This document shows positions 8,913 through 58,700 of a stretch of DNA of 64,000 bases, one piece after another; within the stretch, counting starts at the first letter, position 1; each line of letters starts with the position of its first letter. Made by a program: the position numbers and the translations under genes. The stretch covers positions 40,236,689 to 40,300,688 of the forward strand of contig NC_030381.2 of the NCBI RefSeq assembly GCF_001625215.2, read 5' to 3'. Under the pieces are notes generated by a model. It did not search any database and was not told the origin of the DNA. It worked only from the letters and a program-made list of their open reading frames with translations. This stretch comes from Daucus carota subsp. sativus. Lineage: Eukaryota > Streptophyta > Magnoliopsida > Apiales > Apiaceae.

Positions 8913-11900
8913 TCAGTCAGAACCACTATTTCGAGGGACTTGAGAGAGATTAACAGAACTTATACTCCGTGCCTGACCCATGGATGGGGACATACCTGAG
9001 GAAGTTTAAAGTTAAAACTAATATTAACCAAAAAAAAAACAAATTAACAAGTCACTGAAAACAAAATTCGATTTTGTTGTTATTATCTCTGTTTAGGCTT
9101 AAATCACCATCAACATATATTACATCAAGTCATAATAGCATATAGCTACACGAATGGTTAAATAAACATTTATCTTCTAATTCACAACACATGTATCACA
9201 TAAGTATTATATGGGGGGGCGTATATAACAACTTTTTGGATCAGCAAATATCAGAAATAATGTGAGGTTTATATTCACATATCAAACTACATAACATAGA
9301 AATGTGGTGATCAAACACATCTAAATACACATCTTTACACAAAATACATTTGTATGTTAAAGATATATTAAATACATTGTTTCTGATTAACAAGTATACG
9401 CATGTCCAAACAATTGATGAGATATAATTGCATCTGCTATTACTATCATAATAAAATTTATTTTTTGTATCTTTTTCTCTTCGAAAGCAAAACAAAAGGT
9501 ACAAAAATGAGGCATCTGAAGGCCATTTTATAGCTGTAGTGAAAACACATCTTTAAGTTTATAATAAAACTTGACCTCTTCCTCTTACAAAATAATAATA
9601 TTATCATCACCTTGGCCTTCTATTGTCGAAATTTTCATGAAGTTTCTATACAGATGCTTCATGTCCGTACATATTAACTTATAATATTTGTTTTTGCTTG
9701 TCAAGAACTTCACCTTCTCATATTATAGATTGAAAGGATGCTTCATAAATCTAACGTAATCACAAATACTAGTGATAAAGCCCCTTTTCAGCACTATCTG
9801 GCGATAAGATGCACAAATGAGCAGTAACAAAGAAAAGTCCCTTTGAGGCACCAAAAAACATATTCTAATATTGTGCTATCTTCTTATGGGATTAAACCAA
9901 AATATCATGTTGTTTCAGTAGTTAGAAAGGAGAGTTGAGGTTTGCATGATACAAAGGGCACGTCTAGACCCAGTGTACTAGCATTTTTTGTTATATTGCA
10001 GTGTGTACAGGACACAGACAAACAAGGTGACCCCATGTGTGGGTCCAGTCCAAAAGAAAAGCACAAAACAAAGTTACAGTTCAGCACAAAACAAGTAAGT
10101 ATCATGTCAGTCCAAAATGAAAGTTTGTGCCCTGTCTAATGTTAAAGGAATGTAATTAACACGTTATTGCCGATAATGGAACTTAAATTGTGTTTTTAAT
10201 TATTTTAAATATGTCAACATTTTCTTTTAATAATAATAAATTACATAAAACAATACTCGAGTTTCCGACAAAACATTAGTTGAAATGCAATTTTAAGTGC
10301 CATAAAGACTCATTTTCTGGATTGTGCTGTTTTGGGCCATTTTACTTCATATTGTGCCAAAGGACCGACACCCCAAAACCTAATATAGAATATGAAATTT
10401 TAGCAGAAAACTTGGCATATCTATGTGGCATTGTGGCAGGTCAGGCAGTTAGGATTCTTATGGTTAAAAGCACAAAGATGACTACTTATGCAATAGGAAT
10501 CCAGTCAAAAGATTACAAAATTATCCAAACACAAGTAGATATTACCAGTAAAATAAGGTGCTTGAACTGTGGGGATAGTTTCTGAGATTGCACCACTGAC
10601 ATTCGGTCTGCCATATTGCATCAGATGTGGACCTGGGCCACCTGGCATCACAAAACCCTGTATGGGCCTGTAACCGAGGGTTCCTGGCTGACCTAATTGG
10701 CCGTAGGGAAAGGCATTTGTACCAGCAGCACCTGGTACACTATACATATGTGGCTGAGGATGGCCCATATAAGAGCTATAGAAACCCTGAAAATAAGGAT
10801 CAATAAATACACAAGGAATGTAGGCACGTCATACTGATCAATAAAACTTCACTATTTTAATTCCCAAGAAACAAGGGTTCTGGTTAATAAAAAATTTTAG
10901 TTTTGATCTTATTGACCTGTGGGTACATGTATTCCGGTCCATATGCCGAGTACCTGCCAAACATTTCAGATCATATAAGTCAAATACCTATGGTAAGGCA
11001 CATTCATACATTCACATATCAGCAAGTAATTCATATCACAGTGACCCGATGTATCATCTAGGCATCACATTTTGTACCATATCACTAGAATATTATTGCT
11101 TTAATTCCTTACAAAACACTTGCATACATGGACAACTGCCTCGTGATTTTGGTTGTCTAATAATTTTAAGAAGATTACAGTACATACTACAGAAACTAAT
11201 GGTTTACAGGGAAAGAGACCAATTCTTATATCACAATAAAGAATTTAAACACTATGTCACAATGATATCCCAAGTTTTTTACAACACCAAAAATCATATT
11301 TAATCTTCAGGAAAAATCAATAATAGCTCTAAGTGAATAGAAAGTCATTTTAATTGATAGAGTGATTCTGTTTAATCCAGGTTATTTTGAATAACAATGG
11401 AGCACTTATATCCTCCAAAATTTATTGTTTCAAACATCCTATACGATCAGGCTTAGTTATAGCATGTGGACAATATGAAAACCATGTGGACATGAATGCC
11501 CTCATTCGCCATGTGAAAGAGATTTATGTTACTTGGACTCTTCATTTTGCTTTGAAATACCCATGTCGGACACTCGACACTCTGACATGGAAACTTGGAC
11601 AAGGACACTTATTTTAGGCAGAAAACATGGACATTTTTTAAAATATTACCGAGTTAGACATATGGACACGTATCCATGGCGGACACTTCTAACCGAGTCC
11701 GAGTAACATAGAAAGGGATAAATTCTTTAATGTGAGAGAAATCCACCCAGTCACGGTACTTTCAAACTAAAAAATTAAAATGCCTCAGCTCTTTATTGGA
11801 ACAAGTACAAAAGCCTACAACCCAACTGATGAACTTCAAATCAAAAGTAACAAAAGAAACTCCTGTACATCAAAACCACTCGTAACTCAACTTACCCATA

Positions 11901-18968: not shown

Positions 18969-19017
18969 GTCCCACATCGAGAATATGAAAGAGTAGGGGA
19001 TGGAGAGGAGCTATAAG
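18969..19017 (+). promoter_or_regulatory. USE and TATA box of U1 copy 1
   Basis: GTCCCACATCG at 18969-18979 is an exact plant snRNA upstream sequence element. The TATA box begins at 19012. The 32-nt gap and the TATA-to-start distance of 31 nt match RNA polymerase II snRNA genes of plants. Confidence 0.95.
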
Positions 19018-19042
19018 ATGAGAGGAAGATGCAGCGGATAAG

Positions 19043-19205
19043 GCACTTACCTGGACGGGGTCGATGGCTGATCAAGAAGGGCCATGGCCTAGGTTAGAGG
19101 CTTCCATTGCACTCAGGAAGGGCTCTCGTCTAAGGTCTACCCAAGTGGTGGAGCCTACGTCATAATTTGTGACAGGTGGGGCTTGCGTTCGCGCAGCTCC
19201 ACGCC
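19043..19205 (+). ncRNA. U1 spliceosomal snRNA, copy 1
   Basis: U1 pairs with 5' splice sites. The recognition sequence ACTTACCTG lies at 19045-19053, followed by the stem-loop I region GATCAAGAAGG, the conserved CCATGGCCTAGG, the Sm site AATTTGTG (about 19164-19171) and the 3' stem-loop TTGCGTTCGCGCA. The length of about 163 nt is normal for plants. The first two bases read GC where AT is usual. A plant 3'-end element fitting CA(N)n-AGTNNAA follows at 19204-19218. First gene of the cluster. Confidence 0.96.
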
Positions 19206-19222
19206 AAGTCGAGTTCAACTTT

Positions 19223-19298
19223 GCTTTTGGTTTTTGGTCTTATTTAATTTTAACCAAGAAGCTTTTGGTTTTTGGTCTTATTTAATTTTAACAAAGAA
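19223..19298. repeat. 38-bp tandem duplication downstream of U1 copy 1
   Basis: Units 19223-19260 and 19261-19298 start GCTTTTGGTTTTTGGTC and differ at one position. They lie just beyond the U1 3'-end element. Confidence 0.9.
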
Positions 19299-19399
19299 TA
19301 GGTGATTAGTCGTGAAAAATGAGTAGCAACTAATTTTTCCTTTTGAGTTTCAGCAAGTAGCTAAATCTGTTGATTTTTGGACTTTGTAATTGGAAGAGA

Positions 19400-19449
19400 A
19401 ACCCACATCGCAAGGTTTTCAAAATGACAGACGGACGCTCAGCTATAAG
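19400..19449 (+). promoter_or_regulatory. USE and TATA box of U5
   Basis: AACCCACATCG at 19400-19410 differs from the consensus at one position. TATAAG begins at 19444, leaving a 33-nt gap, the Pol II type spacing. Confidence 0.93.
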
Positions 19450-19474
19450 AGTTCACTAGCCCCCATTAGTAGAA

Positions 19475-19602
19475 GTTACGCAGCCATGTGGTGAGCACAA
19501 AGCGAACTATTCTTTCGCCTTTTACTAAAGAATACCGTGTGCTCGCCACTCACAGTGGCATACGCCTATTTTTGGAGGGCTGTTCCTTTGGAGCAGCTCC
19601 TG
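19475..19602 (+). ncRNA. U5 spliceosomal snRNA
   Basis: U5 aligns exon ends through its invariant loop I. TTTCGCCTTTTACTAAAG lies near 19514-19531, closed by a stem ATTCTTT/AAAGAAT and extended by GGTGAGCAC/GTGCTCGCC. The Sm site ATTTTTGG (about 19568-19575) precedes a 3' hairpin. Start and end are approximate: the start is set from about 31 nt after the TATA box, and the end lies before a CA...AGT..AA-type 3' element at about 19603-19617. Confidence 0.95.
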
Positions 19603-19619
19603 CAATACGAGTCTTAATT

Positions 19620-20850
19620 TTTTACTAGTGGAAAAGATCTATTCTCTTTTTGCTTTGTTGGAACAAAAAAGTCATTCGAAGAGTTGAGTCAGAGAGACGG
19701 AGATCTTGAAGACCTTTAACTATATGTAGACTTTGAAAATTGATCTTCGTCCTGCAATAGAAGGAAAGTAAGAGTATGAAATAATTAAATGTAAATCCTT
19801 GGGAAACTTCATACACTGAGAATCAAGCTCAATGGCATTGGAAAACTTCAGTTTCTTCGGCTTCAAGTAGTGCCAAAGTTTCGGCAATTTTGGGATCGAG
19901 ATCACCCAGAAGTTGGCTACCATCTCCAGCTTCCTAATTATAGAACACATGAGTTCTATATCCTTTATCAACAACTCTACAATAAACTCTGTATCCATTG
20001 TCCCATTGATGTTTCTGCGGTACATGGCAAGCTGATCTGCACTGGTTACCAACACCAACAGCATTCTTCCAAGGACATAAAAAGAAAACACGTCGGAAGG
20101 ATACAATTCTGGAGAAATCTCCGAAAAATATATTTGAACTTGGGAAGAATGAATAATAACCAGTTAAACACCAATTCAAGTTTAAAAATATTTCGATCCT
20201 TAACAAAACTGTAAGAATGATATATTATAATAATGAGCTTGTGTTGTTTTATCGAATGTTCTAATTCACAGTTTTCAGTTTGTCATATACTATACCAGCA
20301 CACTCTGAAATAAATTTGTTAACCATGGGGATCTATCTTAATGTAATTCTACTTGACTTTTAGATAACAATATCAGACGTGATCCACCGTAATTTATGAT
20401 ATGTGAATTGTATTTGAAAATGTCAATCACAATAGATCACAAATGTTATTTTCGGTAAATTGATTGACGTTCGAACTTTCCTTGTACAAATTATTTTCGG
20501 TAAATTGATTGACTTTTTGACATTGTAATTGCAGATGCAAAAAAAGTATAATCATATGAAAATATATCACTTTCATTTGTATTTGTTTTGATTATAAGTA
20601 TTGTATCTGAGTGGCGAAGAACACGAGATAAATGGATAATGAGGTTATGCTTGAACATTAGCTCAGACCGAAGGCTAAATCATGCGAAATGAAGTTTGAG
20701 TTTTTTTACCTTATGATACGGATGGTATAAAGTTATCCATATAAATATGAAAGCTTAACTCTCCATAAAATTTTAATCATTCTGTAGGGTGGCTATGCAT
20801 CTTTTATATATGTATAATGTCTCCTCGACTTATTGTAAACAAGACTAATG
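19620..20850. other. Spacer between U5 and U4, with an unassigned reading frame
   Basis: A minus-strand open frame of 128 codons (20106-19720), extendable upstream without a start, has non-repetitive protein-like composition (for example DTEFIVELLIKDIELM and IPKLPKLWHYLKPKKLKF). I do not recognise the family. No clear splice structure or start is visible; it may be a fragment or pseudogene. A 23-bp direct repeat (TTATTTTCGGTAAATTGATT...) occurs at about 20448 and 20491. Confidence 0.3.
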
Positions 20851-20855
20851 CTTTG

Positions 20856-20903
20856 AACCCACATCGCTTGAGAGTAAAAGATTGTCTAAAACTGATCTAT
20901 AAA
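20856..20903 (+). promoter_or_regulatory. USE and TATA box of U4
   Basis: AACCCACATCG at 20856-20866 and TATAAA from 20898 leave a 31-nt gap. The U4 5' end follows 33 nt after the TATA start. Confidence 0.94.
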
Positions 20904-20930
20904 GACCAAAGAAAGTTGAAGTAGAAAGGC

Positions 20931-21090
20931 ATCTTTGCGCTTGGGGCAATGACGCAGCTAGTGAGGTACTAACCGAGGCGCGTCAATTGCTGGTTGAAAA
21001 CTATTTCCAAACCCCCTCCTTGGCCTTGGTTCTGCCTTGTGCCATCGAGAATTTCTGGAAGGGCTCCCTCTAACCCAGGGTAAAGCCCTA
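20931..21090 (+). ncRNA. U4 spliceosomal snRNA
   Basis: U4 chaperones U6 in the U4/U6 di-snRNP. The 5' end ATCTTTGCGCTTGGGGCAA (U6-pairing stem II), the 5' stem-loop with CTAACCGAGGCGCG, and the single-stranded GCTGGTTGAAAACTATTTCC are diagnostic. The Sm-like site reads AATTTCTGG, with a C interrupting the usual U run. The 3' hairpin is GGGCT...AGCCC. A plant 3'-end element (CA...AGT) follows at about 21091-21105. The end position is approximate. Confidence 0.94.
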
Positions 21091-21309
21091 CAAAACTAGT
21101 CTTCAAATTTTCAACAAATGAAGAACAATTACGCGACTTTTTTAATAACTCGACTCTATGAGATATTTAAAAAGAAAACCTCAAATCTATTGGATTTCAT
21201 CATTTAAACATAATTTGAAGGACCTGCTGGAAAATCTGAAAATGAGTATGGTAGAAATCAATGAATCTGTAAACAAGACACAAGGCAATGCTTCTTCCGT
21301 TGTTAATTT

Positions 21310-21358
21310 GTCCCACATCGCAAGGTATAAGAATAGCTGGTTCCAGTTTTTTATAAAA
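21310..21358 (+). promoter_or_regulatory. USE and TATA box of U2
   Basis: GTCCCACATCG at 21310-21320 is an exact USE. TATAAAA begins at 21352, leaving 31 nt between them; the U2 start is 32 nt further on. Confidence 0.96.
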
Positions 21359-21383
21359 TCTGAGCGGACCTTAGTTGAAAGGC

Positions 21384-21579
21384 ATACCTTTCTCGGCCTT
21401 TTGGCTAAGATCAAGTGTAGTATCTGTTCTTATCAGTTTAATATCTGATATGTGGGCCATTGGCTCACACGATATTAAATTTATTTTTTGAGGGGGAAGT
21501 TCCATCACAGTAGCTTGCTGCTGGGTTCTTCGCGTGTCGCCTTTGCGTTGCACTTCTGCATCGGCCTGGCACACCCCAC
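21384..21579 (+). ncRNA. U2 spliceosomal snRNA
   Basis: U2 pairs with intron branch sites. The 5' end ATACCTTTCTCGGCCTTTTG and the branch-site-pairing GTAGTA (about 21417-21422) are canonical, as are the stem region TTAATATCTGATATGTGGGCC, the Sm site ATTTTTTG (about 21483-21490) and stem-loops III/IV (CATCACAGTAGCTTGCTGCT and GCGTTGCACTTCTGCATCGG). The length of about 196 nt is normal. The 3'-end element CA...AGTCCAA lies at about 21578-21594. Confidence 0.98.
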
Positions 21580-21637
21580 CAAAACTAGTCCAAGTAAGTG
21601 CAACGGCCTGGCACACCTCACCAAAACTAGTCCAAGT
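21562..21637 (+). repeat. Duplicated U2 3' end and 3'-end processing element
   Basis: A 34-bp unit covering the last bases of U2 plus the AGTCCAA element (21562-21595) recurs at 21604-21637 with one mismatch, 8 bp apart. The second copy could act as a back-up 3'-end signal. Confidence 0.92.
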
Positions 21638-21639
21638 TG

Positions 21640-22240
21640 TATTAGCTTAATAAGTGTGACTTGGTCTGAAGAATATCATAAAATGTAAATGATTCTCTCA
21701 TATAACATATACTTTGGATTGCAATTTTTCTTGTATTATTTTAGTACTTGGTTTAATAATTGGAGCATAATACCTTGAGACTGCATCGTCTTGTATTATT
21801 TTGGTACTTGGTTTAATAATCGAAGACTGCATCAACCAATAAGTTCATGTGACTAGTTTCAAAATTTGAGGGTCTATAGCTAATAAGTGTTCACCTATCC
21901 TTATCTACATTCTTATTTGTCCGAGCAATTAAACTTGGTCTGCAACTGAAGGTCTATCCAAGCAATGTACTAGTATGCATCGTAAGTTGGGTTGGGGGAG
22001 CTTGTCTCTGCAGCAGTTGCAATTATAGTGAAATATTGCTTGGTTTATCTTGCTTTCCCTATATTCCGTAATTCACTTGTATGCTTTTACCCGGCCTATG
22101 GCACTACAAAGACATACCAATTAGCGATTTAGCAGTTCGATTTTGATCACTTGAAACTTCAGTTATGGAACTTTACAAGCCAAAAAAGCAATGTGCTTCA
22201 TACTTTTCATTCATAGTTGTATATAATATCACAAGGGAAA
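21640..22240. other. Spacer between U2 and the 7SL-like gene
   Basis: No gene seen. A short direct duplication (CTTGTATTATTTT.GTACTTGG) occurs at about 21730 and 21790. Confidence 0.6.
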
Positions 22241-22242
22241 AC

Positions 22243-22274
22243 GAACCACATCGTCTACATAAATGAATTTATAT
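22243..22274 (+). promoter_or_regulatory. USE-like element and TATA box of the 7SL-like gene
   Basis: GAACCACATCG at 22243-22253 matches the USE except at two positions. TTTATAT begins at 22268. The 14-nt gap is clearly shorter than the 31-33 nt of the Pol II snRNA genes here. Plant Pol III genes of this class usually have about 24 nt, so this is one helical turn tighter still. The elements are assigned partly by context. Confidence 0.6.
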
Positions 22275-22310
22275 CCCTTCATTAGAAGAGAACACAAGGC
22301 TCAGAAGCCA

Positions 22311-22611
22311 GCTGAGCCTGGTAGCGTGGGCTTGTAACTCGAGTGAGAGCTTTAAGATGGCTGGAGTTTGGCTTGGTTCAGAAGGCTGGGCTCTGTTGAA
22401 GTTTGCACAGGCTTGCCCATTCCAAGTATGGAGTTGTGCCTTGGCCACCTAGCGAAGGCTCGGGGGTCAAGGTCACTAAAGCGGAAGGCACAGCGCGAGG
22501 CTGGTTTCACAGAGCAGCGATCACTTCCCTCTCTTGTCGGTGGAAGGATAACAGGCTTGTTCTTGGCAAGTCCATTTAACACCCGATGAGCCACTCAAAT
22601 CAACAACCATC
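22311..22611 (+). ncRNA. 7SL RNA (SRP RNA)-like gene
   Basis: SRP RNA is the scaffold of the signal recognition particle. The 5' domain GGTAGCGTGGGCTTGTAAC followed by TCGAGTGAGAGCTTTAAG matches the conserved start of plant 7SL RNAs (..GCTTGTAACCCGAGTGGGGGC..TTAAG). The middle contains S-domain-like segments, including GGTCACTAAAGCGG and AGAGCAGCGATCACTTCC, that I recall from plant 7SL. The length to the T-rich terminator (TTTTT at 22612, then nine T) is about 300 nt, as expected for a Pol III transcript. The exact 5' end is uncertain: 22299-22311 contains an extra inverted repeat (CTCAG...CTGAG). A covariance-model match is still needed. Confidence 0.75.
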
Positions 22612-22626
22612 TTTTTGTTTTTTTTT
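22612..22626 (+). terminator. Pol III T-tract terminator of the 7SL-like gene
   Basis: Two runs of T (five, then nine) separated by one G directly follow the RNA. The upstream Pol II snRNA genes lack such a tract at their ends and carry a CA...AGTNNAA element instead. Confidence 0.75.
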
Positions 22627-22629
22627 GCA

Positions 22630-23485
22630 CCTTGGTGAGAGTCTGGGTAACTGAGTTAGCCTGTAATATAAGAACTACACATGATCATCCTTTTTCAACA
22701 ATCATAATTATGATAGAATCAACATATGAAACGAAATGCCACAATTGTGTGGAATCAACATACGAGATTTTCGCTATACAAAGGAATGTTTGGTTGCTTG
22801 CGTTATGCGGCTTACTTATCCAACCATAGGTAAAATTGTGTTTTGCATCAGTTAAATGTGTGTTTCTAAGATTTCATTCAAATTGATTTGACCTCTTTTA
22901 TATAAGAGTGCAGGTTCTATAGCTGTTTCAAGGTGATTTTATTGTCTTCGGTGAAATATCAGATCAATAAAAGCTTGTGTTCGTTGAAGGATCAACAAAA
23001 AACTGGGCTTAGGAAACTCTAAACTCTCAAAAGATGGCATAATTATAAATGTCGGATCGAGTCTTTCTATTGCACTTTGAACCAATGTGTTTAAACAGTT
23101 CTTCCGTCTCGGTTAATTGGATACATAGACAAATAATCTCGATGCAATTAGGGATATGATAATCAGTTTACACATCAAAAACTATATCAATAAAAACAAT
23201 TGTCGCAGTTTTGGTACCCGTTGAAGAACAACATCTACATAGTAGAATTTAATAGCCGACACAACTAATTTAACCTAAAATATTCGAGACTAGAAGTTAA
23301 GATAATAAACTTTTTCTGAATGACCAAAGATCTGGCCGGACTTCGATAAAAGAAGTTGATCATTTCAAGTATATACAACACTTTCCGGTTTAGCAGGGGT
23401 TTTAGCCTTAGGTTAGCCTCTTCAAGTTTTGTATAAAGCATGGTTTGTAGAATAGGGGCTTGGTTATATTTGAAAGATATACCAT
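22630..23485. other. Spacer between the 7SL-like gene and U1 copy 2
   Basis: AT-rich; no gene, U6-like sequence or further upstream sequence element was found here. Confidence 0.6.
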
Positions 23486-23489
23486 TCTG

Positions 23490-23539
23490 AACCCACATCG
23501 AAAAGGAACAAAACATCAGCCTAACAGTGACCTATAAAT
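23490..23539 (+). promoter_or_regulatory. USE and TATA box of U1 copy 2
   Basis: AACCCACATCG at 23490-23500 and TATAAATA from 23533 leave a 32-nt gap. The RNA start is 32 nt after the TATA start. Confidence 0.94.
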
Positions 23540-23564
23540 AACGAGGAGGCTGCGAACTTGCAAA

Positions 23565-23727
23565 TTACTTACCTGGACAGGGTCAATGGCTGATCAAGAA
23601 GGGCCATGGCCTAGGTTAGAGGCTTCCATTGCACTCAGGAAGGGCTCTCGCCTAAGGTCTACCCAAGTGGTGGAGCCTATGTCATAATTTGTGACAGGTG
23701 GAGCTTGCGTTCGCGCAGCTCCGCGCC
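23565..23727 (+). ncRNA. U1 spliceosomal snRNA, copy 2
   Basis: Same length as copy 1 (163 nt) and nearly identical, with about eight substitutions by eye (for example CAGGGTCAATGG against CGGGGTCGATGG). The 5'-splice-site recognition sequence ACTTACCTG is intact at 23567-23575; the two bases before it read TT rather than AT. The Sm site AATTTGTG and the 3' stem TTGCGTTCGCGCA are present. The 3'-end element CAATTCTAGTAAAA follows at 23726-23739. It shares no flanking similarity with copy 1 apart from promoter elements. Last gene of the cluster. Confidence 0.96.
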
Positions 23728-24680
23728 AATTCTAGTAAAAATATTTTTTGCATTCATTTTTTTTTTTGCATTCATTTATTTGAAGCTAATGTGAAATTTA
23801 ATTATAGTATTTGGCAATTTATTATTTATAATATTAACCAAGTTGAGATCTATTAAACTATATAGTTTCAGGATTTTATTTGCCTCAAATTTTCGGAAGG
23901 CCCTTAAAAAATGAAGTCATATCATTTGAAAAGAATGTTGAAGTTTTGGTGACACTGAAGAGCAAGGAATGCATAGTAGAATCACAATTCTTGACATGAC
24001 AAGATCAAGGGACATGCGATGATTGACTAGTATAATACGAGCATGATTCACATCTGATGAAACTTTAGCTTGGAAGGATTGTTGCCTTCCTCTTATGGCA
24101 TGATTTATGGCTGAATCAGTTGACAGTTGCAGTCTATTATGGCATAGGCAGGAACTATCTTCTCTCAATGTAAATAGGCAGTATTTGCACAATTTTCACA
24201 AAATCTGGTGCTAGCTTTCTACCTGGTTCTGTTACGGAGCTATTCTTAGCACTTCTCTTTGTGAACCAGGAGCTTGGAGCTCTTTTCCGGTTGCTTGCTA
24301 AATCAAGGACTTTACCAGTGTTTCAAGTCTAACTATACTTTTAAGCTGAAAAATGTTTATTTGTGTAATAAATTAGAAGTACAATTAAAATTAGAAATAA
24401 GTCACATACTGAAAAATTCGTTTTATGTACTCTTTTCTTTATACACTTTATTCAGTTACTTAATTTTTAAATTTTTTTGACAAAATTTACCTTTAAGTTA
24501 TAATTTATCTATAAATCACTTTTATTTTTATCATTATATTTTTAGTAATCCATAAATCATTAATAAATTAAAATTACTCAAACAAATAATTTGAACTCTA
24601 AACTTAAATCATAAATCAAAATATTAAAAACAACCAAATGGTCTCTTAAACATGCGCGCAATATTGTTGCTAATCTATTA

Positions 24681-49700: not shown

Positions 49701-52700
49701 CAAACTCATAGTTTCATGACATGAACACATTTTGCCAACCATAGAACTGTAGAAAATTTATTGTGCCACACAAGCTTGTTAGCAGTAATATTCTTACTAT
49801 ATTATCTCTTAGAAAAGGGACGTTTTAGCATTAATACATGAAACTGTTAAATATCATCACAGCTATCACAGAAGCACAATGACAGCATGGTGATATCACA
49901 AGTGTAGCCTCCATGTATGTTGACATAAGCCATGACATCAACATCACTGTTCAAAGAGCCCTACCAAGTTATCCTGTTGGACCTGTCCTATATAAGAGGC
50001 ACTGCCTCATTGTTACTTATATAAGAAAGTAAGATAGCATATAGAAGTTTTATTAACAGCAGTAACATATAGGTGCTGGATCAAATATATATATTTTTCT
50101 ATTCCCAATTTTTTCCTACATGTTAATCATTACTTATATAAAGTATTAATGTTGCAATAATTGAAAAAACATTACCATTTTATATTTTATATATAAAAAA
50201 AACACATAAGTAAATTGTTTGTTTAACACACTCATAATTGGGGTTCAACATCATGTGTTGAACATTAGTTATCATTGTGTGGAAATTTTATATTTATGTT
50301 TTAATTATCCTTCCGGGGCTCACCAAATTTACCAATATCCAACTAGGGTATAGAAATATAAAATACTGATTATATAATACATTTAACTAGAATTATTATT
50401 ATAAAAATTGTTTATGTAGTAGTTCAAAAGAAGTTAACAGTTGTTCAACAGAGGATGTTGAACTCAAGTTGTATATATTTGAATACTCATCATAAACAAA
50501 ATTCAATTATTCATAAATAATATCACAGATATGTTCCTCCAACGAGTAGAAATCATTTTTCAATCATTTACAAGATTACAACTATTGAAATTATCAAATA
50601 TTCAAAAAGTTTGCAAGTTTGTACCGGAATCCTCCCCGTTACTATATACTCAGATATATATACATTCTTTAACATCAGCTATATATTCGTACATATACAT
50701 TCTGCCCTTTCCTCCTATAATCATTATCTCATATTCTTCAATATATATACGTATACGAATTGTAACACAAACTGAAGCTTCTACTGCTCTTATTAGTTTC
50801 ACAATAAAAAATCTAGAACCAGAAAATTTAGGACCAACTAGAGATATCCCTTCGAAGAGAAAAAATTATGGGAGGAAGAGGAAACAATATCAAATGTAGG
50901 ATTAGTTTTCAATCTTGAAGTCATTGTCCAGTGTGCTCCGGGATTCACTCATACACAGGTCTGGTCAAGAAAACCCAGAAAAAACCAAGTATGAGTATCA
51001 TTACAAAACATACAGATCTTGCAATAGGGTCTGACAAAAAAAATCTGACAGCCTTAAGCTCAAAAGCCTAGAAGGTTAATATTTCATATCAATCCATAAT
51101 TTTAAATGCGTAGAAAGATAAGAATACACTTCTATTCACATAGGATTTAAATTAAAACGATCGTTAAAAAAGTGCTTTTTAGATAAGAAAACATATCGTG
51201 AGAACTATTTTGCTACTACTGTTCTAATGTATATGTAATATGTAAATAAATTAAAAAATGGAAAAAAAATTAATAATCCAAGAAAGAGCATATTAAAATT
51301 GATTTGCTCACAAAAGGCAAATAACAAAAAGATTCAGATTATAAGAACCAAGACAACAGTAATTATGATTTACACATCATCTGGAATCAATTATTGCAGC
51401 AGTTGCTGGTTCACGAGATATGTAAAGAAGGTGATACAACTGCATGGTGAACAGTGATGCTCCATCTGGTAGAGATGTTTGTTTGTGCTAGAGTTGACCA
51501 TTGTTTTTTGGACCTAAAGCTTCAACTACAGAGAGCAAAAGGTGGCCGATGTGGCGATGTCTAGAGTCTAATACCACTCATAGTAGATTAGAGAATTTTA
51601 GATGTAAAGGAGAAATAATTAAGGCCAGAAGCCTCAAAACTAGGTAAGCCGGACTCCGGTGGAACTGCCTAACATTGTCGACATATCAGAGTTAACACTA
51701 GACAATATTTTCAAAAATTTCACATGTTTTTCGTCTAATACAAACTGCAGAATGTCCATACCACGTCAATCGAGTGCTTGATGCAGGTACTTAAGTTGAT
51801 ATAAAATCAGGTGCCACAAGCGTAGACCATAGATCATATTAAGGCTATGCAACAACAGAAACCTTCTAAATGTACAAAGTCTAAACTTTAACATTATCGG
51901 TATGCCGCAAGCGTAGATGTACTACAGATATGTAACAGAACTGATATCAGTGTCTACACGTGGCAACCAGGTTGTGCAACTAAGTTATTTGGTACACAAT
52001 ACTCTTCAAAAACATTTGCTAGTTTACTGCATGAGCACTAGTTCAAGATGTGTTAGTGATCATACCACATTAACCAGTACCCAAAAAATATACTTCTAAC
52101 ATAGCAACAACAATAACTTTAATCGATTCAAATATTGTTTTAATATTTAATATATATATCCCCTTAAAGTCAAAATATAATAAGTTCAATCCACCACACA
52201 AACAAATTCACCACAGGATTCGGTGCAGCATGGTATAACACCAATACCAATTATGCAGTGCATAAACTAGGGCGCTCAAGCCTCTGTAATGGACCCAAAG
52301 AACTCACTCATCAAATATGCAAGGCAGGGGAAACAGAGTAAGGGTACAAAGGTAACTTCGCAGTCGGTCAACGGGGCAGTGAAGTAAAAGAGCATCAGGG
52401 GCAAGAAAGGAAGGGAAAAACAGGAGCGTAGTAAAAGGGCGAGAAAAGGGGGATCTAGGGTTTTTATCGATCATCTATTTTGTAATTGCTGTCTTACTGC
52501 TGGAGAGAATGAACCTCTCGAATTGTTCTTAAACACTTTAGTTCCGTATTATATATATATACATCGTTGCTTGGGGTTGGTGTGTTGCTGTTAACTTACT
52601 ATTATTCAGCTGTGAGCATTACAATTGGTATCAGAGCCACAACGATCGATGGGACCGCCGACTCTCGCACAACGGTTGGAGCAATTAGAGGAGCGACTCA

Positions 52701-55700
52701 CAGATCTGGATGGGTCGGTTGTGGAGATGGTTTCTAAGGCGGTGGAACGCGGGATGGAGGTTATGCGTTCGTCGTTGACGACGATGTTGGTCGAGCACCA
52801 GACGGTGTCGTCTCAGAAGGTTGGGGCTGAGTTCGAAACCCTCACTAGTACGTTGGAAGGGCGACTTCACCGGAGCCGCGAATATCAAGAGTCCCTCATC
52901 AACGCCATTCGCACTGAACAACTCAAGTTTCAGTCTGAGATTAAGGAGATTCTCCACAAGGGCGCTACTCCAGACCCGACGGGTAGTAAAGGACCTAGGG
53001 AGGGTTCTGCATCTAAAGGGTCGATGGTGTTTTTTGGAGGAGGAGCGGAGATTGACGGGTCAAATGGCAGTGGGGGGGGTCCTGGGCCACCACCTGGGGG
53101 TTTTCAGGGCGGTGGAGGTGGGGGTAACTCTAGTCACTGGCGTTATAGGAAGCTGGATATGCCGATTTTTGACGGTAGTGACCCAGATGGTTGGATCCTT
53201 AGGGTGGAGCGTTATTTTGCGTTTTATAGATTGACTGAGGCTGAGATTTTAGAGGCTGTGGCAGTAGCTCTCGAAGGGGATGCCCTCAAGTGGTACCAAT
53301 GGGAAAATAAACGGCACCCCATTCGACGTTGGGATGATATGAAATTGTTTATTCTGAGGCAGTTCCGTGCGATTGGAGGGGGTTCGTTATACGAACAATG
53401 GTTGGCGACAGTCCAAACTGCTACTGTTGAGGAATATCGCAGGAAGTTCATTGAAACCGCGGCTCCACTGGAGAGGGTTTCGGAAGACATTTTGATGGGT
53501 CACTTTGTAAATGGACTGAAGGACGAAATTAAGGCGGAAGTTCGGTTGATGGGTCCCTTATCACTCGAACAAGCAATGGAATGGGCTGTTCGTGTGGAGG
53601 AGAAGCACCGGGTGCTGACAGGGCGGAAACTAGGGATCAGCTCATCCAAGGCTGGATTCTACTCGTCCTATACCAAAGGTACGCCACCCTTGTCCACACA
53701 GACATCATTGGTTAGCCAGTCACAGTCGCATAGTGGGGTTAGTACGGTTTCAGAGTCCCAGTCGTCGGTTTCCCCTTCCAAGGGTGGATCCCAGCACACA
53801 AAAGGGGGGGCGGAAGTTAGGCGTCTCACTGATAAAGAGTTACAAGCTAAGAGGGCTCGAGGGGAGTGTTATCGTTGTGATGAGAAATGGGGGCCTGGAC
53901 ATAGGTGTAAGAAAAAAGAACTCAGTGTGTTACTGATTGATGAAGAAGGGGAGGATGAAGGCAGTGAGCACAGTGAGGTCGTAGCTAATGTGGTGGGGGA
54001 AATAGCATCAGAAGTTTCGTTAAATTCTGTTGTGGGATTGTCGAATCCGAAAACTATGCGGCTTAGAGGGTTGTTGGGCTCTCAGGAAGTCATTGTCTTG
54101 ATCGATCCAGGGGCGACGCATAACTTCTTGTCAGTAGAGTTGATTAAAGCAGCTGGCATTAAGGTCTTACCTACGGGTTCTTTTGGCGTATCACTTGGTA
54201 ACGGGGACGCAATTAAAGGGGAAGGACTGTGTAAGGACGTGATATTGCAGTTAGATGGTGGGGTGGAAGTTCAGGCGGATTTCTTACCACTGGAATTGGG
54301 GAGTTCGGATGTGATATTAGGCGTGCAGTGGTTGGAAACTTTAGGTATGGTTCTCACTAATTGGAAGACACAAGTAATGAAATTCGAGATGAATGGGGCA
54401 CCTATTACACTGATGGGTGATCCTACGTTGGTCAGGGCCAAGGTGTCCCTCAAAGCGATGCTACGTGTATTGCAGAAACAGGGTGAAGGGTTTTGGGTGG
54501 AATGTAGTAAACTGGAAGTGCAGCCGGGAGAAAAACAGGATCAGCCAGCTTCCCAGATTCCACAATTCCTCAAAGGGGTGGTCAACAAATTTCCTCAAGT
54601 TTTCTCTGAACCCCAGGGCCTGCCGCCTAAACGGGGTCACGAGCATGCAATAACACTGAAAGATGGGACTGATCCGATAGGCGTTCGTCCCTTCCGGTAC
54701 CCTCAATCACAGAAGGATGAAATAGAGCGGCTGATCAAGGAAATGTTACAGGCTGGCATCATTAAACCCTCGACAAGTGCATTCTCAAGTCCGGTATTGC
54801 TGGTAAAAAAGAAGGACGGGTCTTGGAGGTTCTGTGTAGACTACCGTGCCCTGAATAAGGAGACAGTTCCTCACAAATATCCGATTCCGGTAATCGACGA
54901 GTTACTCGATGAGTTACATGGTGCTACTGTTTTTTCTAAGCTGGACTTAAAGGCCGGGTATCATCAGATATTGGTTCGACCAGAGGATACACCGAAGACA
55001 GCATTTCGTACCCACGATGGACATTACGAATTTCTCGTAATGCCCTTCGGCCTTTCCAATGCTCCAGCGACATTTCAGTCGCTAATGAACGACATTTTTC
55101 GACCATATCTGAGGAAATTCGTTCTGGTATTCTTTGACGACATATTGGTCTACAGTCGGAGTGAGGAAAATCACCAGGAGCACCTCGAGTTAGTGCTGCA
55201 AACACTGCGGGACAACAGCCTATACGCAAATCTTAAGAAGTGTGAGTTTGGTCAGTCCAGGATCGGGTATTTGGGACATACCATCAGTGGAGACGGGGTT
55301 GGTGCAGAGGACGACAAGATTAAAGCCATCACCGAATGGACTCAACCTCGGAATTTACGCGAGTTAAGGGGGTTTCTGGGCCTTACAGGATATTATAGGA
55401 AGTTCATAGCATCCTACGCGCAATTAGCTCAACCTTTGACAGACCAACTGAAGCGTGATAATTTTGGGTGGTCAGAAGCAGCCACGACTGCCTTTGAGGC
55501 TTTGAAACTGCCATGGTTAAAGCCCCGGTACTGCGTCTCCCAGATTTCGAACAGCCTTTTGTATTGGAGACTGATGCGTCTGGTTATGGAATTGGGGGTG
55601 TCCTGATGCAGCAGAATCAGCCTATAGCCTATTTCAGCAAACTACTTGGACCCAAAACTCAGTTGAAATCAACTTATGAAAAGGAGCTGATTGCCATTTG

Positions 55701-58700
55701 TCTTTCCATCCAGAAGTGGCGACACTATTTAATGGGCCGGCATTTTATAGTAAGATCTGACCAGCAAAGCTTAAGACATTTGATGCAACAACGAGAAGTG
55801 AACAGCAGTTATCAAAAGTGGATTGTCAAACTTTTATGCTATGACTTTGAGGTCCAGTACAAACCAGGGACAGCAAATAGGGTAGCTGACGCCCTATCCC
55901 GGAAAACAGTGGGGGAAGTAACTCTGGAGACATTAGTAGGGCTGAGCAAAACCGAACCGAAACCGAATAACCGAACCGAACCGTGCAATTCTGGTTAGGT
56001 TCGGTTCTTATTTTTCTGAAAATTCCGGTTAATTCGGTTTTCGGTTATTAACCGAATTGTTATTCGGTTCGGTTCGGTTATTAGAATTACAAATACGGTT
56101 ATAACCGAAATAACCGAATTATATATTTATTATTTTTAAATAATATATATATATATACTATATATATAAAATAGAAATCAGATTAGAATTAAACTTGCCC
56201 AGAGCCTCAGACCTAGTTTCTCGTACACAAAACACAATACCTAATCCACAGCCGCCGCTCCGCTTCCGGCCCTCCGCGACTCCGCCTCCGGCCCTCCGCG
56301 ACTCCGCCTCTCCCTCAGGCCTTATCCTGCAGCCGCCGACTTTAAGAATCAAAGATTCAAAGGTGCCCAATCTAATTCGTATCTACTACTGGCTTTCAGA
56401 TGGTGGCCTAGCTGCTGGCTACTGGTTGTGACTTTTGAGTTGGCCGCATTGCAGATTCCACTATTCCAGAATAGTCCAAGCACCTGCTGATGGATCAAAT
56501 GGATTGTTTTGCTAATTGCTATAAGGCTTGAGTGTAATAATTTTTAATTGTTCTTTTGATTTTTCAATATATTGTTTTTTAAAAATCAAAATGAAAAGAA
56601 AATTCGGTTATTTCATAACCGAAACCGAATTAACCGAATTATTTCGGTTCGGTTTCGGTTCGGTTTAATAGCTAATTCGGTTCGGTTCGGTTAAATAAAA
56701 AATCTGCATTTCGGTTTTCGGTTATTTCGGTTCGGTTCGGTTTTGAACCGAACCGACCGAATGCTCAGCCCTAGACATTAGTCTCGTCATACGACATTGA
56801 TTGGGGCCAGTTGAATACAGAAATTGCGAAGGATAAGGATTTATTACTGCTTAAACAAAGAGTGGCTGAGGGGGAAGCTGTAGCTGGGGGATTTCACCTG
56901 AAGGAAGGTAAGCTATTGTACAAAAACAGGCACGTCATTCCGAGAAACTCTACTGTTATTCCTGTGTTGCTGCGCGAATACCATGATTCTGTGGTGGGAG
57001 GTCATACTGGTGAGGTTAAAACTTACCTCCGAATGGCTGTGGATTGGTTCTGGGTGGGAATGCGTGACAGGGTAAAGGACTATGTTCGCGAATGCCATGT
57101 GTGCCAGCAAAATAAATCATCTCAGCAGCTGCCGGCGGGGTTGCTCCAACCATTGCCAGTGCCATCAATGGTGTGGGAGGATTTATCGATGGATTTTATT
57201 GAGGAGTTACCAGTATCAGGTGGCTTTAATACCATACTTGTAGTGGTGGATAGGCTCTCGAAATATGCGCACTTTCTGGGATTACGGCACCCTTTTGATG
57301 CCCGGACAGTGGCCACCGTATTCATTCAGGGGGTAGTTCGGTTACATGGATTTCCTGGCTCTATCGTATCCGACCGGGATCGAATTTTTTTAAGTGGATT
57401 CTGGAAAGAGCTGTTTAAACTCCAGGGGACGGTTTTGAAAAGGAGTACCGCCTACCATCCTCAAACGGATGGGCAGACGGAGAACGTGAATCGAGTCCTC
57501 GAAACATATCTGCGGTGCTTTGTGGGTGGAAATCCGAAAACTTGGGCTAAATGGTTAGGTTGGGCTGAATTTTCCTACAACACATCTCCGCACTGCTCCA
57601 CGAAATGGAGTCCGTTCAAGGTGCTTTATGGCAGAGACCCGCCTCACCTGGTTCCTTTCAAGTCGGGACAGACACCAGTTCAGAGTGTAGAGGAACTGTT
57701 ATTGGACAGGGACGCTATTTTAGCTGACTTGAAATTCAATTTGGTCCGCGCTCAGCAACGGATGAAAGCAGCAGCTGATGGCAAACGCCGAGAGGAATCG
57801 TTTAAGGTGGATGACTGGGTTTACTTGAAACTTCAGCCGTACCGTCAACAATCATTGGCAAGGCGTCGGTATGAGAAGTTATCGCCCCGTTTTTATGGGC
57901 CATTCCAGGTGTTGGAAAGATAGGGAAGGTCGCGTACAAATTGGACTTGCCACCATCGAGTATGATTCACCCTGTGTTTCACGTGTCCCAACTCAAACGC
58001 AGCATTGGGCATGCTCAGGTGGCTACTACGGTTCCTGCTCAGTTGTCTGCGGACTTGGAGTTAGTCGTGGAACCCGACATGGTGCTAGATGTTCGCAGGG
58101 TTAAGTACGGAGGGGACACGAGACTGGAGGCTCTCATACAGTGGAAAAACCTTCCTGCGGATGAGGCTACTTGGGAAGATGTGGGGATGATGCAACAGCA
58201 ATTTCCGTTGTTTCACCTTGAGGACAAGGTGAGTCTTTGGGACCGGGGTAATGTAATGGACCCAAAGAACTCACTCATCAAATATGCAAGGCAGGGGAAA
58301 CAGAGTAAGGGTACAAAGGTAACTTCGCAGTCGGTCAACGGGGCAGTGAAGTAAAAGAGCATCAGGGGCAAGAAAGGAAGGGAAAAACAGGAGCGTAGTA
58401 AAAGGGCGAGAAAAGGGGGATCTAGGGTTTTTATCGATCATCTATTTTGTAATTGCTGTCTTACTGCTGGAGAGAATGAACCTCTCGAATTGTTCTTAAA
58501 CACTTTAGTTCCGTATTATATATATATACATCGTTGCTTGGGGTTGGTGTGTTGCTGTTAACTTACTATTATTCAGCTGTGAGCATTACAGCCTCAAGGT
58601 GGCTTCCATTTATATTGCCATCTCTAGTACTTTGTGTGTTCTAACTTCTAATAAGTTGTTAATCCAAGCAGTGCCACCTCGATCCTACAGAATTCAATAA

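Follow-up and report, generated by a model that had tools for sequence, protein, structure and literature searches.

Metazoan small nuclear RNA (snRNA) arrays mostly contain a single class each and carry a proximal sequence element (PSE), not the upstream sequence element (USE). In plants, a survey of Arabidopsis reports ten groups, of which seven are U1-U4 pairs, two are same-class duplications and one is a U2-U5 pair (PMC545797). Here, we analyzed a 64-kb window of the Daucus carota subsp. sativus genome (C1:40236689-40300688; "the window" denotes this whole stretch), in which five genes for four major snRNAs (U1, U2, U4 and U5) and one gene for 7SL, the RNA of the plant signal recognition particle (SRP), follow each other in the order U1-U5-U4-U2-7SL-U1. 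As in the Arabidopsis pairs, adjacent snRNA genes carry a USE and a TATA box, and two of the gaps between consecutive RNAs (278, 1332, 296, 731 and 950 nt), namely U1-U5 and U4-U2, compare with the 180-300 nt of the Arabidopsis U1-U4 intergenic regions (PMC545797). Unlike these pairs, the carrot locus combines four major snRNAs and 7SL in 4.7 kb, and other clusters of the same genome add U6, U3, U6atac and U12. U1-U4 and U2-U5 pairs, which the initial annotation described as known in plants, are both present in the Arabidopsis survey, and neither arrangement (U1 immediately preceding U4, or U2 beside U5) occurs in the window. The clustering far exceeds that described in this survey (PMC545797): taken singly, these snRNA and 7SL genes are ordinary for a plant, and it is their arrangement that represents an unusual degree of clustering.

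Three other systems are close enough to be compared. In trypanosomatid clusters of tRNA, 5S, U-RNA and 7SL genes, U1, U3 and 7SL can co-occur, as here; these clusters differ in being, according to the paper, entirely transcribed by RNA polymerase III (Pol III), dominated by tRNA genes, of mixed strands and without a system of USE and RNA polymerase II (Pol II) (PMC2695483). The Euglena U3-U5 linkage is a recurrent association of a small nucleolar RNA (snoRNA) gene with an snRNA gene that is thought to have spread by duplication; it involves only two classes, always convergent, and its authors stated in 2009 that U3-U5 linkage was known from no other organism (PMC2784804). The human RNU1 and RNU2 arrays are likewise made of repeated snRNA genes and are gathered at Cajal bodies, with inter-chromosomal gathering shown for these human loci (PMC4802181). 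Among the top results of our searches in open-licence full-text literature, no plant cluster of this make-up was found described, in line with the initial annotation, which knew of none with four snRNAs and 7SL. The plant snRNA linkage that we found described consists of pairs, whereas in carrot Pol II and Pol III genes sharing the USE are packed together repeatedly, with up to six classes per group.

Identity and promoters of the six genes

We scanned both strands of the window with all Rfam 15 models at their gathering thresholds. Only six matches exceed the thresholds in 64 kb, all on the + strand within 19043-23725, and all are full-length over their models and well above cut-off (Table 1), including 5/5 genes of the Pol II class (U1, U2, U4, U5). 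The identities and the head-to-tail packing on one strand that had been proposed from the letters alone are thereby confirmed, and scores at pseudogene level, which would have spoken against them, are refuted. Note that the U5 limits are those of the Rfam model, the real 5' end probably lying a few nt further upstream. A permissive scan (E up to 1, 14 matches) returned no further snRNA or 7SL in the window, and its additional matches, seven to microRNA (miRNA) models and one to ssnA, are all below cut-off; additional hidden small RNAs were therefore rejected. U6, already noted as the missing major snRNA of this cluster, is absent from both scans, and a tRNA scan found no tRNA in the window.

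The plant USE has the consensus RTCCCACATCG, with the TATA box about four helical turns away in Pol II genes versus three in Pol III genes (PMC9845283), and plant snRNA genes end with a 3' box, CA(N)3-10AGTNNAA (PMC5079582). Searching both strands of the 64 kb for the USE with at most one mismatch gave five sites, two exact and three with one mismatch, and all five precede a Pol II snRNA gene by 63-71 nt. In these five genes the TATA box begins 31-33 nt past the end of the USE, which is the four-turn spacing. The 3' box is exact after both U1 genes and U2, with near matches only after U5 and U4. The initial annotation had credited each gene with its own USE and TATA box: this holds for the five Pol II genes and is weaker for 7SL, where the USE has two mismatches and the TATA box is uncertain.

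The 7SL USE lies 57 nt upstream of the RNA, a distance similar to that in U6, U6atac and U3 genes (54-56 nt). We extended this comparison to 45 genes, i.e. the six window genes plus 39 of the 44 Rfam matches in stretches fetched from elsewhere in the genome (four U2 and one tRNA omitted). The USE-to-RNA distance is 63-65 nt in 21/21 U1, U2 and U4 genes, 68-71 nt in 8/9 U5 genes and 54-57 nt in 13/15 U6, U6atac, U3 and 7SL genes. The genes that depart from these ranges, one each of U5, U3 and 7SL, carry three or four USE mismatches. The distance separates the genes by polymerase class, as far as the polymerase can be predicted from the type of gene. On this basis, the U1, U5, U4, U2 and second U1 RNAs would be made by Pol II, starting ~31-33 nt past the TATA box (for U5, 38 nt if the Rfam limits are used) and ending at the 3' box, and 7SL would be made by Pol III from a USE placed 6-14 nt nearer the RNA start, with the T-run ending the transcript.

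The position of the 7SL TATA box is less clear. A TATAT motif is found 16 nt past the USE in the window 7SL and 15 nt past it in the C2 copy, whereas three of four U6 genes have it at 25 nt; among the four other 7SL copies read, it is absent at that place from the C8 copy and both C7 copies. Conversely, TTCAT occupies the U6-like place in the window, C8 and both C7 copies and not in the C2 copy. In the two 7SL genes with TATAT (22243-22285 in the window; 9595-9898 in stretch L039), its location ~10 nt nearer the USE than in U6 genes of the same clusters possibly reflects a spacing specific to 7SL.

Some details of the RNAs and their ends were also noted. The first U1 (19043-19053) starts with GCACUUACCUG rather than AUACUUACCUG, as does its C8 paralogue, and its C7 relatives are degenerate. 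The Sm-type site of U4 (21050-21058) reads AAUUUCUGG, with a C within the U run; it is identical in all seven U4 genes read, and the C is therefore not a mark of decay here. The 3' end of U2 and its 3' box are tandemly duplicated (21557-21637; 95%, 42-nt period), which provides a second 3' signal, and two 38-nt tandem copies (97%) directly follow the first U1 gene (19223-19298). The two U1 genes share 95% of their RNA, 60% over -80..-1, 56% over the first 60 nt downstream and 49-50% of the further flanks, where random pairs give a mean of 48% (20 pairs). A recent tandem duplication of these two genes was rejected, since the flanks are near random despite 95% identical RNAs; the duplication is thus old, or the genes have been converted.

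A genome-wide set of mixed clusters

We then considered the whole assembly (441 Mb, 11 contigs), using one search per family. Matches above the curated cut-off amount to 42/42 for U1, 42/44 for U2, 15/26 for 7SL, 7/7 for U4, 24/24 for U5, 22/27 for U6, 22/28 for U3 and 1/1 for U12, i.e. at least 175 genes in eight families, the matches below cut-off (two U2, five U6, 11 7SL and six U3) having been left out before counting. These lists are lower bounds: a C7 U1 at 119 bits is missing from the U1 list, and the U5 list lacks copies of 43 bits that belong to the C2:50.16 array. Note that U2 is partly N in the fetched genome copies, which lowers its score, the window U2 scoring 170 bits directly and 51.5 in the genome search. 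Of nine low-scoring U2 matches in the fetched stretches, five have adjacent N and four do not; the latter may be diverged copies, in which case the U2 count may include some pseudogenes.

Another class lies within 5 kb of 146/175 genes. For six families (all but U3 and U12), this is the case for 126/152 genes, whereas 1000 uniform placements gave 0.43 on average and never more than 6, a weak null since duplication itself makes clusters. Linking genes at 10 kb yields 40 groups, of which 15 are single genes and 24 comprise two or more classes (at least three classes in 18, at least four in 14 and at least five in 8); the groups of two or more genes together span 288 kb, or 0.065% of the assembly. 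The clustering concerns every class, with another class within 10 kb for 39/42 U1, 38/42 U2, 7/7 U4, 23/24 U5, 21/22 U6, 12/15 7SL, 16/22 U3 and 1/1 U12 genes. The window cluster, whose uniqueness the initial annotation implied, is thus one of many within this genome.

Gene order varies from cluster to cluster (Table 1). Outside the window, the clusters also include U6 (in many of them), U3, one U6atac (inside a C5 cluster, from an Rfam scan of the fetched stretches) and the sole U12 match, which is on the opposite strand at 2.3 kb from a U5-U1-U4-U3 cluster. Over 140 kb of stretches picked for their snRNA genes, 43/44 Rfam matches correspond to USE-type RNAs, the remaining one being a tRNA. 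As controls, we searched for the U14 snoRNA (9 matches in the assembly, 8 over cut-off) and the RNase MRP RNA (3 matches), and none of either lies in a cluster. RNase MRP RNA is USE-driven in plants.

The orientation of the genes is also strongly biased. For six families, 108/109 neighbors at up to 5 kb share their strand, and 24/25 multi-class clusters (5-kb linking) are single-stranded. With eight families, adjacent pairs without U3 are same-strand in 105 cases and opposite in 2, counts that tandem arrays inflate, and the 20 adjacent pairs involving U3 are same-strand in 6 cases and opposite in 14; U3 therefore stands outside the one-strand rule. One same-strand case is found in stretch L040 (5877-6367), where a U5 and a U3 gene are only ~200 nt apart.

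A variant element (TTCCCTCATCG, TTCCCGCATCG or TTCCCTCATCC) occupies the USE position in U1 arrays at C5:12.23, C2:50.16-50.18, C8:33.30 and C9:36.34-36.38 Mb (stretches L017, L025 and L028-L032), and the clusters at C8:11.03 and on C9 contain three U6 matches of 84 bits rather than 113. These variant arrays and low-scoring U6 genes possibly belong to a diverged second set of snRNA genes that has a promoter variant of its own.

Table 1. Features of the window cluster (window coordinates) and gene order of four other carrot clusters (assembly coordinates)
Feature	Position	Strand	Details
USE of first U1	18969..18979	+	GTCCCACATCG, exact
TATA box of first U1	19012..19016	+	
U1 snRNA gene (a)	19043..19203	+	RF00003, 138.1 bits, cut-off 69.5; 5' end GCACUUACCUG
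3' box of U1 (a)	19205..19218	+	CA(N)3-10AGTNNAA
USE of U5	19400..19410	+	AACCCACATCG, 1 mismatch
TATA box of U5	19444..19448	+	
U5 snRNA gene	19482..19598	+	RF00020, 95.4 bits, cut-off 40; limits by Rfam
3'-box-like signal of U5	19603..19617	+	near match, by eye
USE of U4	20856..20866	+	AACCCACATCG, 1 mismatch
TATA box of U4	20898..20902	+	
U4 snRNA gene	20931..21087	+	RF00015, 101.3 bits, cut-off 46
3'-box-like signal of U4	21091..21105	+	near match, by eye
USE of U2	21310..21320	+	GTCCCACATCG, exact
TATA box of U2	21352..21356	+	
U2 snRNA gene	21384..21579	+	RF00004, 170.1 bits, cut-off 46
3' box of U2	21580..21593	+	exact
Tandem duplicate of U2 3' terminus and 3' box	21599..21637	+	95%
USE of 7SL	22243..22253	+	GAACCACATCG, 2 mismatches; 57 nt before RNA, Pol III distance
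TATA-like TTTATAT of 7SL	22268..22274	+	14 nt after USE
Alternative degenerate TATA of 7SL	22278..22285	+	TTCATTAG; at U6-gene TATA position
7SL / plant SRP RNA gene	22311..22614	+	RF01855 Plant_SRP, 208.8 bits, cut-off 105, model 1-305
T-run, Pol III terminator of 7SL	22615..22626	+	
USE of second U1	23490..23500	+	AACCCACATCG, 1 mismatch
TATA box of second U1	23533..23537	+	
U1 snRNA gene (b)	23565..23725	+	RF00003, 145.8 bits, cut-off 69.5
3' box of U1 (b)	23727..23740	+	
Cluster	C2:49.67 Mb		U2-U6-U5-U1-7SL
Cluster	C6:23.33 Mb		U1-U2-U1-U2-U5-U6-(U3, opposite strand)-7SL
Cluster	C5:12.23 Mb (12226504-12247679)		U5-U6-U1-U2 unit, four tandem copies, ~5.5 kb each
Cluster	C8:17.01 Mb		U5-U1-U4-7SL-U5

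Duplication, conservation and competing explanations

Spacers between the genes of the window cluster align with spacers of the clusters at C8:17.01 Mb and C7:39.73-39.86 Mb. When 15 stretches were grouped with their RNA genes masked (threshold 1e-8), the window joined C7 and C8 and matched none of the stretches from C2 or C5; those from C2 and those from C5:35.5 Mb fall into separate groups, with only short matches between groups. In one C8-C5 pair the matches sum to 1.9 kb outside the snRNA part, a similarity that may be a repeat. Block duplication therefore accounts for the kinship within a group, and the mixing of classes is found in at least three groups.

We compared the genes of the window with their paralogues in eleven comparisons, ignoring gap columns. 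RNA identity is 0.95-0.97 for U1, 0.92-0.96 for U5 and 0.99-1.00 for U4, and for these three classes the core promoter reaches 0.76-0.94 and the upstream flanks 0.67-0.91. For 7SL, the values are 0.90-0.91 for the RNA, 0.70-0.72 for the core promoter, 0.81-0.85 for the upstream flanks and 0.63-0.89 downstream (+21..+200). The RNAs are more conserved than their flanks, with a weak contrast for 7SL. The structure of 7SL was examined separately: among five paralogues, 14 of 123 base pairs have changed on both sides, versus 6.6 in shuffles (0/500 reach 14) and 2-4 in slid controls, the structure being taken from the alignment of the window's own sequence to the Rfam model, which somewhat favors that structure.

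The U4 RNA of the window is identical to the C8 and C2 copies (157/157), with differing flanks. More broadly, in a comparison of the window gene (20931-21087) with those of stretches L033, L034, L040, L041 (by eye), L042 and L044, the U4 RNA is identical or one base off in 6/7 genes across C1, C2, C7 and C8, and the flanks have diverged. The variable part of U4 is able to change, as it differs in a C5 copy. Identical RNAs, differing flanks and a changeable variable part together point to gene conversion, by which U4 has probably been homogenized between loci.

We consider it likely, on the strength of gene structures, spacing and conservation, that the locus consists of six independently transcribed, working genes in a duplicated mixed cluster, in which the RNAs and core promoters are under selection and U4 is homogenized. 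The window cluster would then be one member of the genome-wide mixed set, grown by tandem and block duplication of promoter-gene-spacer stretches, and selection would hold the RNAs and core promoters, least clearly for 7SL. Several observations weigh against this reading. The USE and TATA box of 7SL are degenerate and, relative to the C8 copy, its RNA (0.908) barely stands out from the flanks (0.85-0.89), with a core promoter at only 0.70. The 5' end of the first U1 is unusual (GC for AU), and one comparison out of eleven, second U1 versus C7, gives a higher identity for the upstream flank (0.91) than for the core promoter (0.87). Finally, degenerate U1-like copies follow USEs with only one mismatch in some of the paralogous C7 clusters, and a good USE is therefore no proof of a working gene.

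Two explanations of why the classes lie together are compatible with six working genes in a duplicated cluster, and their chances and that of this reading do not sum to one. The first, to which we give an even chance, is that proximity is a neutral by-product: an ancestral chance neighborhood of snRNA genes was duplicated repeatedly, and selection acts on the genes and not on their being neighbors. The block homology among the window, C7 and C8 clusters, the tandem units on C2 and C5, and the shuffled gene order between paralogous clusters all fit this scenario, which accounts less well for the fact that every snRNA class tested clusters with another class within 10 kb, and for the existence of at least three groups lacking long spacer homology.

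The second, possible but rather doubtful, is that the clustering is functional, a shared local supply of SNAPc and TBP and a Cajal-body-like site coordinating the output of splicing RNAs and 7SL, so that the grouping of the classes and their head-to-tail order are maintained by selection. The recurrence of class mixing in three or more spacer groups with little common spacer, the one-strand layout of nearly all multi-class clusters, the position of the sole U12 match and the absence of U14 from all clusters are in its favor; moreover, human snRNA loci are brought together by Cajal bodies, the loss of which reduces snRNA output (PMC4802181). On the other hand, same-strand order is expected from tandem duplication alone, the clusters are non-independent samples, 14/20 adjacent U3 pairs as well as U12 are on opposite strands, and the three RNase MRP RNA matches are unclustered. 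In a broader extension, still more tentative, nearly all the USE/SNAPc-type genes tested, Pol II and Pol III alike (U1, U2, U4, U5, U6, U3, 7SL, U12 and one U6atac, with RNase MRP RNA excepted), would sit in ~24 mixed clusters acting as joint sites of transcription and of assembly of the small nuclear ribonucleoproteins (snRNPs); selection for a balanced dosage of splicing RNAs would maintain the class mixing, and the copies would be homogenized across chromosomes.

The idea, raised in the initial annotation, that the locus is a seed for spreading snRNA copies survives in part: blocks with shared spacers do exist on C7 and C8, but they arose by duplication of promoters and spacers. Spreading as RNA-derived or mobile-element copies would fit the many copies and the U4 RNA that is identical on several chromosomes with differing flanks, and is nevertheless very improbable, since the copies retain their USE and mostly their 3' boxes and the spacers were duplicated too, features that RNA-derived copies would be without. 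Also very improbable are pseudogene relics or an assembly artefact: despite the degenerate copies on C7, a pseudogene array was rejected by the full-length, high Rfam scores, the conservation of RNAs relative to flanks and the 7SL compensatory pairs, and an artefact looks unlikely because related clusters have differing spacers and orders.

If such clustering is general in Apiaceae, it offers a natural test of whether linear clustering leads to snRNA co-expression, Cajal-body placement and cross-chromosome homogenization. For genome annotators, loci of this kind are compact gene clusters and not scattered repeats. The celery genome paper reports 8878 snRNA genes (PMC6944684).

Other features of the window and of the searches

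Away from the cluster, the window harbors, at 42.5 kb, a gene for thioredoxin reductase that shares 95% identity (84% of the query covered) with one of Heracleum sosnowskyi, and a Ty3/gypsy-type retrotransposon (52616-58354) whose gag, protease, reverse transcriptase and integrase lie in separate open frames. A U2 pattern search found no match in viral contigs and two matching contigs, L001 and L002, among prokaryote genome contigs, which are probably eukaryotic contaminants. L001 (JAOZOU010000036.1), filed as a bacterial metagenome-assembled genome (MAG), looks eukaryotic, since its 5.6 kb contain divergent U2 and U1, three histone 3' stem-loops and 5S rRNA.

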